DNA of 64,000 nt, from NCBI RefSeq assembly GCF_029626105.1, contig NZ_JARUBH010000009.1, positions 3,038,001 to 3,102,000 of the forward strand, written 5' to 3'. Below are positions 54,177 to 57,077 of the stretch, piece by piece. The translations under genes and the position numbers were made by a program. This DNA is from Solwaraspora sp. WMMD792 (GTDB lineage Bacteria; Actinomycetota; Actinomycetes; Mycobacteriales; Micromonosporaceae). How positions within the stretch are numbered: the stretch's first letter is position 1; every line of letters begins with the position of its first letter. Below the pieces are notes generated by a model. It was given only the letters and a program-made list of their open reading frames with translations, was not told the origin of the DNA and did no database searches.

Positions 54177-54758
54177 ATGCCCCGGGTGAGCCAGATCCAG
54201 CTCGACGCACGCCGCCAGGAGATCCTCGCCGCCGCCCGGGTCTGCTTCGCCCGGCACGGGTACGAAGGTGCCACCGTCCGCCGGCTGGAGGAGGCCACCG
54301 GGCTGTCCCGAGGAGCGATCTTCCACCACTTCCGGGACAAGGACTCACTGTTCCTGGCGGTCGCCGAGGACGACGCGGCCGCGATGGTCGAGACGGTGGC
54401 CCGCAACGGCCTGGTCCAGGTGATGCGCGATCTGCTCACCCGGGCCGACTCCCCGGACACCGCCGGCTGGCTGGGCAGCCAGCTCGAAGTGTCCCGGCGG
54501 CTACGTACCGACCCGGACTTCGCCCGGCGCTGGGCCGCCCGGTCGGCGGCGATCGCCGAGGCGACCCGGGAGCGGCTCGGCCGCCAACGCGACGCCGGCG
54601 TGCTGCGCGACGACGTACCGATCGACGTCCTGGCGCGGTTCCTGGAGCTGGCCTACGACGGGCTGGTGCTGCAGCTCGCGATGGGACGGCCGGGCAGCGA
54701 CCTCGGCGCCGTGCTCGACATCGTCGAGGAGGCGGTACGACGCCCGACGCCGCGCTGA
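54177..54758 (+). CDS. acnR: TetR-family regulator of aconitase (AcnR-like)
   Basis: A 193-residue TetR regulator. HTH (about 8-55): 'DARRQEILAAARVCFARHGY', 'ATVRRLEEATGLSRGAIFHHF'. The ligand domain includes 'DSPDTAGWLGSQLEVSRRLR' and 'AARSAAIAEATRERLGRQRD'. In corynebacteria and mycobacteria the TetR next to acn (AcnR, Rv1474c) represses aconitase and senses citrate/iron status (from memory). Neighbourhood, strand and the shared palindromes here support the same role. The start has no strong ribosome-binding site, and the transcript could be leaderless from within the palindrome. An 11-bp inverted repeat covers its stop. Confidence 0.9.
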   Translation: MPRVSQIQLDARRQEILAAARVCFARHGYEGATVRRLEEATGLSRGAIFHHFRDKDSLFLAVAEDDAAAMVETVARNGLVQVMRDLLTRADSPDTAGWLGSQLEVSRRLRTDPDFARRWAARSAAIAEATRERLGRQRDAGVLRDDVPIDVLARFLELAYDGLVLQLAMGRPGSDLGAVLDIVEEAVRRPTPR

Positions 54759-54844: not shown

Positions 54845-55723
54845 ATGACGCCCGGTGAAACCTGGGGCATCCCCGGACCCACCTTCCTCGCCGTCTTCGG
54901 ACTGACCGCACTGGTGCTCCTCCTCGCCAACCTCGGCTACCGGCGGATCGCGCTCGCCGGGCACGACGGCCGCACCGGATCGCTCGGCGGCGCCGAGGTC
55001 GCGTACCTCAACGGCGGGGGCCGGTTGGCTGTGTACGCCAGCCTGGCGGCGTTGCGCTCGGCGGGCAGCGTCGACGTCGGCACCCGCGGCGCGTTGCGGG
55101 CCGCCGGCCCGCTGCCGGCCGGGGCAGGGCAACTCGACCAGGCGGTGCACCACGCCGCGCAGCGTCAGGTGCGCGTCCGCGACCTGCAGACCGACCAGTG
55201 GGTCACCGACGCGCTGCACCGGATGCGCGACGGCCTGGTCTCTGCCGGGCTGGCCATCGGCGACGGCCAACGCCGTACCGCCCGGCTGCTCGCCGGCACG
55301 GTCGGGATCCTCGCCGCCGTCGGTGTGCTGCGGGTGTTCGCCGGCGCCGCGAACAACCGGCCGGTCGGCTACCTGGTGCTGATGCTCGCGGTCACCGTGC
55401 CGGTGGCGCTGGTGCTGTTCTTCTCGGTGCCGCGCCGCACCCGGGCCGCGAATCGCCTCCTCACCAAACTGCGCAGCCAGTACCGTCACCTGTCGCCGAC
55501 CCTGCGGCCGGCCCCCGCGACGTACGGTGTCGCCGGCGCGGCGATGGGGGTCGGCGTTTTCGGGGCGGCGTCGTTGTGGGCCATGGACCCGGCGTTTGCG
55601 GGGACCGCGGAGATCCAGCGGGTGAGCGCCGGCACCGGGTCCTCCGGTTGGGGCGGTGACAGCGGCGGTGACGGAGGCGGCGGCTGCGGTGGTGGCGGCT
55701 GCGGTGGCGGCTGCGGCGGATGA
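54845..55723 (+). CDS. TIGR04222 domain membrane protein with Gly/Cys-rich C-terminal tail
   Basis: A 292-residue protein with membrane helices at about 12-32, 145-168, 172-196 and 230-250, and a soluble TIGR04222-type domain between the first two ('GGAEVAYLNGGGRLAVYASL', 'LDQAVHHAAQRQVRVRDLQT', 'RMRDGLVSAGLAI'). The tail after residue 260 is almost only Gly/Ser/Asp and ends 'GGGGCGGGGCGGGCGG' with Cys281, Cys286 and Cys290. The TAGGAG ribosome-binding site is good. The stop overlaps the start of a DUF692 (MNIO) gene (ATGA). MNIO enzymes oxidatively modify cysteines of RiPP precursors (established for MbnB, ChrH, TglH), so this tail is a likely modification substrate (inference). With four helices, the tail and N-terminus share one side. 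Confidence 0.88.
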   Translation: MTPGETWGIPGPTFLAVFGLTALVLLLANLGYRRIALAGHDGRTGSLGGAEVAYLNGGGRLAVYASLAALRSAGSVDVGTRGALRAAGPLPAGAGQLDQAVHHAAQRQVRVRDLQTDQWVTDALHRMRDGLVSAGLAIGDGQRRTARLLAGTVGILAAVGVLRVFAGAANNRPVGYLVLMLAVTVPVALVLFFSVPRRTRAANRLLTKLRSQYRHLSPTLRPAPATYGVAGAAMGVGVFGAASLWAMDPAFAGTAEIQRVSAGTGSSGWGGDSGGDGGGGCGGGGCGGGCGG

Positions 55724-56577
55724 GCCCGATGTCCGCCACCGCCTGGCCGGTCAACCCCGACAGCGGGCTCGGGGTCGGCCTCGGCTGGCGGCCGGAGATC
55801 TCGGGATTCGTCGATGAATTGCCCGGATTGCGCTTCTGCGAGGTGATCGCCGAGTCCGTCAACCCCGGCCGGCCACTGGACGACGGGCTGCGCCGGCTAC
55901 GTGAGCGGGGGGTGACCGTCGTGGCGCACGGCGTACGGCTGTCCCTCGGCGGCGCCGAACCGGTCGAGCAGCACCGAGTCGACCGGCTCGCGGGCGTCGC
56001 CGAGCTGCTCGGCGCGCCACTGGTCAGCGAACACATCGCCTTCGTCCGGGCCGGCGGGGTCGAGGCCGGGCATCTGCTGCCGCTGCCCCGCACCTGGGCG
56101 GCGGTCGACACGGTCGTCGGCAACGTCCGGCGGGTGGCCGCCGAGCTGCCGGTGCCGGTCGCGCTCGAACCGATCGCCGCGGTGTTCGACTGGCCCGACG
56201 ACGAACTCGACGAAGCCGACTTCGTCAGCGAGATCCTCGAACGCTCCGGTGCGCTGCTGCTGTTGGACGTCGCGAACGTCTACGCCAACGCCCGCAACCG
56301 GGGCGACGACCCGGTCGCCCTGCTCGACCGGCTGCCGCTGGAACGCATCGCGTACGTGCACGTCGCCGGCGGTGCCGCCGACCGGGACGGGATCTACCAC
56401 GACACGCACACCGACCCGGTCCCGGCCGAGGTGCTGCAGCTGCTCGCCGAGCTGTGCGCCCGGCGGCGGCCACCAGCGGTGCTGCTGGAGCGGGACGGGC
56501 ACTATCCGCCGGGCGAGGTGCTGCGCGCCGAGCTGGACGCGATCGCGGCGGCCGCCGGGCTGGGCCGGATCACGTGA
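55720..56577 (+). CDS. DUF692 family multinuclear non-haem iron oxidative enzyme (MNIO)
   Basis: A 285-residue TIM-barrel enzyme of the DUF692/MbnB family. Candidate metal ligands at family positions are all present: His70 ('VVAHGVRLSLGG'), His105 ('SEHIAF'), Glu150 ('VALEPIA'), Asp183/Asn186 ('LLLDVANVYANARN'), His214 ('YVHVAGG'), Asp228/His230 ('HDTHTDPV') and Glu257 ('LLERDGHYPP'). Characterised members use two or three iron ions to rearrange peptide cysteines into oxazolone/thioamide, thiooxazole or related groups. It is coupled to the Cys-tailed membrane protein upstream (ATGA) and to a 167-residue protein downstream (GTGA), the usual enzyme-partner layout. An internal ATG at 55729 is an alternative start. 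Confidence 0.92.
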   Translation: MSPMSATAWPVNPDSGLGVGLGWRPEISGFVDELPGLRFCEVIAESVNPGRPLDDGLRRLRERGVTVVAHGVRLSLGGAEPVEQHRVDRLAGVAELLGAPLVSEHIAFVRAGGVEAGHLLPLPRTWAAVDTVVGNVRRVAAELPVPVALEPIAAVFDWPDDELDEADFVSEILERSGALLLLDVANVYANARNRGDDPVALLDRLPLERIAYVHVAGGAADRDGIYHDTHTDPVPAEVLQLLAELCARRRPPAVLLERDGHYPPGEVLRAELDAIAAAAGLGRIT

Positions 56578-57077
56578 CCGGGCGGGTGTCGTCCGGCGTC
56601 GGCTCCGACCCCCGAGCCGAGCGCGCCGCCGCCCGACGGGCGGAGCTCGCCGCTGCCCAGCGTGCGCTGATCGCATCCCTCGTCGACGGCACCGATCCGC
56701 CGCCCGGCTTCGACCCGCACCGGTTGTCGGTCGCCCGTGCCGCGTTGGCCCGCAAGCGGGCCGGTGAGGTGGCCCGGCACTGGCCGGTACTGGCCGCCTC
56801 ACTCGGTGCTGCCTGGCCGGCCGCGTTCGTCCGCTGGGCAACGGGCCGACGGCCGGCGGGTGGGCTGCGCGACGGCTGGGACTTCGCCCGTGCGCTGGCC
56901 GCCGATGACCGTCTGCCGGATCTGGCCGTGGCGGAGCTGGCCGGCTGGGAGGTCGGCTGGCGCTACGACGGGTCGTCGGTTCCCCGCCGACGCCGTTCCC
57001 CGGCGGTCCGCCGGCTGCCCGGCGGGTGGACGGTCCAGGTCGCCGGTCGGGTACGGACGTTCGGCCGCCGCTGGTAG
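56574..57077 (+). CDS. Putative partner protein of the DUF692 enzyme
   Basis: A 167-residue, mostly helical protein starting at the GTG that overlaps the DUF692 stop. It has no domain I can name. The segment 'PPGFDPHRLSVARAALARKR' followed by 'HWPVLAASLGAAWPAAFVRW' resembles the N-terminal pattern of MNIO partner proteins (DUF2063/MbnC-like: R-L-x-x-(Y/A)...F/W-P...LG...F). A C-terminal basic tail is 'VRRLPGGWTVQVAGRVRTFG'. By position it probably presents the substrate to the MNIO, or stabilises it. Without homologue analysis this remains inference. Confidence 0.65.
   Translation: MTGRVSSGVGSDPRAERAAARRAELAAAQRALIASLVDGTDPPPGFDPHRLSVARAALARKRAGEVARHWPVLAASLGAAWPAAFVRWATGRRPAGGLRDGWDFARALAADDRLPDLAVAELAGWEVGWRYDGSSVPRRRRSPAVRRLPGGWTVQVAGRVRTFGRRW

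Follow-up and report, generated by a model that had tools for sequence, protein, structure and literature searches.

The window analysed here is a 64,000-nucleotide stretch of Solwaraspora sp. WMMD792. It contains three coupled genes on the forward strand, hereinafter designated T, M and P. T (54845..55723) encodes a 292-residue TIGR04222 membrane protein, M (55720..56577) encodes a 285-residue MNIO enzyme of the DUF692 family (PF05114), and P (56574..57077), which has a GTG start, encodes a 167-residue partner protein. T and M are joined by an ATGA overlap, M and P by a GTGA overlap. T ends in a Gly/Cys tail (55640..55720, forward strand; residues ~266–292) that carries Cys281, Cys286 and Cys290 and closes with Cys-Gly-Gly. 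A preliminary description of this DNA had reported the three overlapping genes and the three tail cysteines; on re-reading, its coordinates are right and the cysteine positions are borne out. Directly upstream of T, on the same strand, lies a TetR-type regulator (54177..54758; PF00440), which might control the cassette. At the threshold used, the whole 7.4 Mb genome holds one TIGR04222 match and one MNIO match, and the two adjoin. The T-M-P gene set is thus confirmed as a real arrangement, and the Solwaraspora window is an ordinary member of a conserved, already described gene set that many soil actinobacteria share.

The profile search places T in TIGR04222 (NCBIfam), as first proposed, with 142.6 bits against a cut-off of 43. 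The AlphaFold model of T (mean pLDDT 87.7) starts with a hydrophobic helix at residues 11–36 and contains three likely membrane helices (TM1–TM3), which lie within model helices 11–36, 140–169 and 175–193. The model further contains a folded region (49–133), short helices (200–264) and a disordered Gly/Cys tail, with mean pLDDT of 53, 45, 50 and 47 in blocks from residue 261 onward. The fold of T has no significant match in the PDB. Its folded loop gives weak winged-helix-like sequence matches, in single members or at E ~0.04; speculatively, this loop might be the docking surface for M and P. DUF2207_C (PF20990) is matched by 10 of 71 T relatives at E ≤ 0.01 and, in Solwaraspora T, by residues 134–210 (the TM2–TM3 region) at 14.1 bits, under the cut-off of 33.

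M scores 260.6 bits for PF05114 (cut-off 25). Solved DUF692 structures that align with it are 3bww and 8hci/8hi7/8hi8, and it shares metal-site motifs with 3bww and 8hci; we take 8hci and 8hi8 to be TglH. Thirteen residues (E41, E45, H70, H105, H118, N135, E150, D183, N186, N193, H214, D228 and H230, numbered in the 285-residue protein) are invariant in 77/77 M sequences, and E257 is conserved in 98.7% of them. Some of these conserved residues are presumably iron ligands of the MNIO metal site, which agrees with the earlier assignment of the second gene as a DUF692/MNIO protein with candidate ligands. The 8hi7 structure is given as TglH in the available text of PMC12452194. The best NCBIfam match of M is BufB (NF050167), at 180.4 bits under a cut-off of 310, and HvfB (NF003818) gives 164.6 bits under a cut-off of 360. 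M falls under the cut-offs of all five NCBIfam MNIO models matched, and therefore no chemistry is assigned from these models.

P has no significant Pfam family. DUF2063 (PF09836) matches it with an E of 0.14, below the cut-off, and reaches E ≤ 0.01 in 1 of 71 aligned P members. Specifically, P follows the MNIO gene and lacks the DUF2063 signature, as is the case for PME-type 2 proteins; PME-type 1 proteins carry that signature. The model of P (pLDDT 94.1) consists of five helices followed by three strands. Among 350,542 PDB chains, its best match is chain C of the methanobactin complex MbnABC (7dz9_C), a weak one (E 0.51, probability 0.38), and neither NGO1945 nor TglI is named among the best 50 of 73 matches. 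Unlike in the methanobactin system, no short precursor of the MbnA kind was noticed here.

Association of T, M and P across genomes

In a class draw of 296 genomes, a TIGR04222 hit occurs in 100 (74 of them over cut-off) and an MNIO hit in 66. In a family draw of 200 genomes, TIGR04222 is matched in at least 150 (at least 137 over cut-off) and MNIO in 134; first-pass T scoring took 9 candidates per genome in the class draw and at most 13 in the family draw, and weak T sites may be missed in these counts. The class draw yielded 94 T sites from 73 of the 74 genomes over cut-off (G121, rows below cut-off and second pieces being left out) and 72 M sites from 65 of the 66 genomes (fragment rows of G251 and G198 being left out). 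An M site lies within 8 kb of 54 of the 94 T sites. All 54 linked pairs are on the same strand, so the association of T with M is not a matter of chance. T comes first in 30 pairs and M in 24.

P is constant in this association. It stands beside M or is fused to it in all 83 fetched loci with T and M (downstream in 53, in the same frame in 27, upstream in 3). Around the 97 M open reading frames scoring above 100 bits in the fetched loci, P is downstream of 60, in the same open frame as 32, upstream of 3 and absent from 2, and its lowest score is 47.5 bits. In genus g24, probably Streptomyces, 22 of the 24 loci fetched (e.g. L063, L067 and L069) encode M and P in a single open frame. Such in-frame fusions strongly indicate that P and M act together. 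The suggestion that the third gene resembles an MNIO partner therefore stands as to the constant association, the fusions and the weak MbnABC fold match, and fails as to the DUF2063 signature, which is absent.

A set of 27 loci from named genomes, found by M alone, at least 5 of them records already in the first locus set, gives a similar composition: 26 have P, 26 have T, 25 have at least two tail cysteines and 20 have a Cys-Gly-Gly end. In L215, the sole locus of the 27 without P, the stretch stops right after M, and in L212, the sole one without T, no T match is present in 1.5 kb. Two of the 27 loci, from Candidatus Eremiobacterota MAGs (L225 and L227) and thus outside Actinomycetota, have M, P and Ser/Cys tails ending in Cys-Gly-Gly. 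An apparent T-P fusion in L180 contains only a 22-position piece of P in frame after the T tail and is probably a deletion scar; the MNIO match of that genome lies elsewhere.

Recurring neighbours were read in 39 Micromonosporaceae loci, hand-picked for spread, over ~3 kb on each side of the cassette. A TetR regulator recurs in 29 loci, a HAD hydrolase in 24, an ABC transporter in 24 and an SDR protein in 23; clusters are named from their members in the Solwaraspora window, with HAD, ABC and SDR assigned by reading the sequence. None of the recurring clusters in these loci, as read, resembles a copper gene. These recurring neighbours suggest that T-M-P belongs to core physiology and not to a natural-product cluster.

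The Gly/Cys tail and Cys-free T proteins

A Gly/Cys tail was defined as at least two Cys in the last 45 residues together with a Gly+Ser share of at least 50% over the last 30. In the class draw, such tails are present at 36 of 54 M-linked T sites, at the one site on a contig edge (1/1), at 4 of 19 sites whose genome has M in another place and at 2 of 20 whose genome lacks M. Counted by genome, with G079 scored as having M because M runs off the contig edge there, 39 of the 54 T genomes that have M, and nominally 2 of the 19 that lack it, carry a tail (39, 2 / 15, 17; Fisher P = 4.6e-6, kinship ignored). At the simpler threshold applied first (three Cys in the last 60 residues, complete frames), the site counts are 37/54 linked, 5/19 with M elsewhere and 3/20 without M.

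Several apparent tails without M look unsound. L163 has no stop in a fetched stretch that starts at a contig end, the reading frame of L167 is doubtful, in L161 M begins but runs into the contig edge, and in L156, counted at the first threshold only, the Cys lie outside the Gly run. T genes distant from MNIO also include a different tail type, with Gly-run ends that close with Asp and have few or no Cys (L151, L158, L159, L165, L166 and L172).

The C-terminal end of the tail is largely fixed. Among distinct tails from the hand-picked Micromonosporaceae loci, 41 of 43 end in Cys-Gly-Gly, compared with a mean of 2.6 and a maximum of 9 when the final 25 residues are shuffled 2000 times; among tails of the remaining fetched loci, 14 of 38 do so (shuffle mean 2.1, maximum 8), and as these ends come from related genomes the counts are not independent. 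Despite the fixed end, the spacing of the last two tail Cys varies in Micromonosporaceae. Across the final 60 residues of 83 tailed T proteins, Gly comes next after 302 of the 347 Cys that are not themselves terminal. TglH and ApyH are MNIO enzymes that act at a C-terminal residue, and by analogy it is plausible that the enzyme reads the tail from its C-terminus.

Six unlinked T paralogues of the same family (L137–L140, L144 and L160) keep the T domain and lack the tail Cys, with no M in the fetched stretch. Release of the tail by signal peptidase at a DPAFA motif after segment 4 was considered and rejected; the position two residues ahead of the final Ala is variable (A, D, G or L), and the motif is kept in Cys-free paralogues too.

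A survey of Gly/Cys tails beside DUF692 had been suggested as a check on the preliminary description. The tails are indeed associated with M (39/54 versus 2/19), but not without exception: a tail is present in 36 of 48 linked loci, and the 12 without one comprise 11 g24 loci and L194. The preliminary description had named, as evidence against its own reading, loci that keep the coupling to DUF692 beside a tail without Cys, and these 12 loci, 11 of them from g24, are of that kind. The M-P fusion is kept beside Cys-free T in L067, L069, L070, L074, L077, L079, L080, L081, L083, L086 and L087. Tail modification is therefore not the sole role of M-P across the family, and this is the main result against a simple reading of the tail as substrate.

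In four g24 loci (L073, L075, L082 and L085), a Cys-tailed T1 and a Cys-free T2 occur together, and T1 thus appears to be missing from the Cys-free loci. A Cys-tailed T1 query run against 25 genomes in all matched 9/9 controls, one being the query's own genome; in the remaining 16 (15 of g24 and G181), no further T1-like match came up besides the already known Cys-free T proteins, the single-Cys protein L153 and a weak hit in G208. At the threshold used, no other Cys- and Gly/Ser-rich open reading frame is present on the M strand in the 11 g24 loci; clustering of reading frames at the g24 loci is swamped by shadow frames. In L069, a gene that reads as DUF4142-like lies between M-P and T, and a cluster occupies that position in 8 of 15 such loci. 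Cys-tailed T1 proteins of L063, L072, L073, L075, L076, L082 and L085 share a Trp-Cys-Ala motif just ahead of the tail.

Membrane topology of T

The side of the membrane on which the tail lies depends on segment 4 (residues 222–247; 55508..55585, forward strand), a possible fourth membrane helix. On a simplified scale written from recall, which makes the energies approximate, the median insertion energies in 93 T proteins are −0.9 for TM1, 1.1 for TM2, −0.5 for TM3 and 4.1 for segment 4. The energy of segment 4 on this approximate scale exceeds 3 in 62% of relatives and is less than 1 in 3%, with −0.36 as the lowest value; in Solwaraspora T it is 2.3, versus 1.1 for TM2. The median number of basic residues is 0 at the N-terminus, 15 in loop 1, 1 in loop 2 and 6 after TM3, which fits an N-out, C-in protein with three helices. 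AlphaFold splits segment 4 at Gly240, the sole invariant column in an alignment of 71 T sequences, into helices of 16 and 7 residues. The six unlinked paralogues have net-basic ends after segment 4 (+2 to +4 over the final 25 residues), which favours the cytosolic side. The Cys-free T proteins of g24 have ends of mixed charge (−3 to +1), which carry little topological information.

Other features of segment 4 are less one-sided. In Solwaraspora T, it contains a run of 23 residues without D, E, K, R, N, Q, H or P, as against runs of 16, 15 and 12 in TM1–TM3. Charge is present within residues 226–244 in 58 of 93 T proteins and within TM2 in 89 of 93, and across the family neither run length nor charge count separates segment 4 from TM2 and TM3. 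On this mixed evidence, segment 4 is probably not a membrane helix, and T probably has three such helices rather than the four counted in the preliminary description. If segment 4 does not span the membrane, the tail is in the cytosol. We consider a cytosolic tail likely, contrary to the preliminary description and to the placement in PMC12452194.

Possible role of the tail and alternative readings

Clusters of TIGR04222, MNIO and "PME-type 2" genes were described by Antoine et al. in 2025, who proposed the tails as substrates and, in the available text, left the modification and the role of these clusters for future study (PMC12452194). Their clusters resemble the present set, with the same families, mostly in Actinomycetota, and with Cys in Gly/Ser-rich tails; examples in the available text include a TIGR04222 protein and a 158-residue partner from Micromonospora. 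Two points differ. PME-type 2 genes are given there for at least 10% of TIGR04222 clusters, and many clusters with MNIO seem to be partnerless, whereas P is present in 83/83 loci here; and the tail is placed in the periplasm by prediction there, whereas it is probably cytosolic here. In the available text of a further paper (PMC5183585), TIGR04222 is mentioned once in passing, and among the matches listed since 2025 there is no other paper naming it. The literature searched contains no experiment on the TIGR04222-MNIO arrangement and no established function for it, as the preliminary description had stated, although the arrangement itself has been published. What is new here is the constancy of P and its fusions, the counts of the tail-M association, the Cys-Gly-Gly end and the probable cytosolic topology.

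Bufferins and captophorins, which are thiooxazole metallophores, are similar to T-M-P in that an MNIO enzyme and a partner act on Cys, and the best NCBIfam match of M is BufB. Unlike T-M-P, their precursors have Sec signal peptides and PME-type 1 (DUF2063) partners, and M is far under the BufB cut-off (PMC12452194 and PMC13097082, available text). According to the available text of PMC13097082, thiooxazole formation costs each Cys four hydrogens (−4 Da) and yields a copper-binding product.

The reading that best accommodates the gene set, the constant and frequently fused P, the association of the tail with M and the largely fixed Cys-Gly-Gly end is the following. T would be a membrane-anchored protein substrate, with its C-terminal Gly/Cys tail as the core. 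A complex of M and P would dock on T and oxidise one or more tail Cys in the cytosol; by analogy, the likeliest product would be a 5-thiooxazole or a related four-electron product (−4 Da per Cys). The tail would stay attached and may serve as a soft-metal (copper) or redox-active tether at the inner face of the membrane. The identity of the tail as substrate, the type of chemistry, its cytosolic location and a role in metal binding are inferences. We put at about 0.55 the probability of this reading, in which M-P oxidises cysteines of an anchored tail in the cytosol, perhaps yielding thiooxazoles and a tail that binds metal. The RiPP logic of the preliminary description thus appears well supported by gene association as regards enzyme, partner and tail, but not as a universal rule, in view of the 12 of 48 linked loci in which M-P stands beside a T that lacks a Gly/Cys tail.

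The same modification could take place on an extracytoplasmic tail, if segment 4 spans the membrane and the tail acts outside in the manner of bufferins, which is the proposal of Antoine et al. Such a topology agrees with the published one (available text of PMC12452194), with the 23-residue run without strongly polar residues in Solwaraspora and with the few relatives whose segment 4 has a low insertion energy (3% below 1, lowest −0.36, approximate scale). We regard it as doubtful: in many relatives the homologous segment looks soluble (62% above 3 on that scale), it contains charge within 226–244 in 58/93 proteins (although TM2 is charged in 89/93), the AlphaFold helix has 16 residues and is broken at Gly240, and the six unlinked paralogues are net-basic just after it, the ends of g24 Cys-free T saying little.

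Two other readings dispense with tail modification. M-P may act on another protein or peptide, with T as a scaffold or dock whose free-thiol tail binds metal; M-P is kept beside T without a Gly/Cys tail in 12/48 linked loci, and the fetched stretch of another 12 loci contains M and P but lacks T. This is unlikely given that Gly/Cys tails are almost confined to M-bearing genomes and that the 11 g24 loci offer no other Cys- and Gly/Ser-rich frame on the M strand at the threshold used. That the tails are Gly-rich low-complexity sequence in which Cys drifts neutrally would suit the Gly-rich tails with few or no Cys in genomes without M (e.g. L158, L159, L165 and L166); it is very improbable beside the association of the tails with M and a Cys-Gly-Gly end in 41/43 tails (shuffle mean 2.6, maximum 9).

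Work on MNIO enzymes has dealt mostly with peptide precursors. Should the tails of integral membrane proteins be substrates as well, the modification would belong to everyday physiology (metal or redox handling) and would not make a natural product. More tentatively, oxidation of a cytosolic tail by M-P could amount to a RiPP-like system with a folded, three-helix membrane protein in place of the leader and a permanently attached cytosolic tail as the core; the MNIO enzyme would read the C-terminus via the fixed Cys-Gly-Gly, and the membrane-bound thiooxazole-like metal site would never be released. The added results sharpen the tail-modification hypothesis and also limit its universality. The hypothesis is open to direct tests through the membrane side of the tail, the near-universal partner and the C-terminal register. 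In five Micromonosporaceae loci (L105, L106, L124, L132 and L134), tandem T genes with unequal tails stand beside one MNIO gene.
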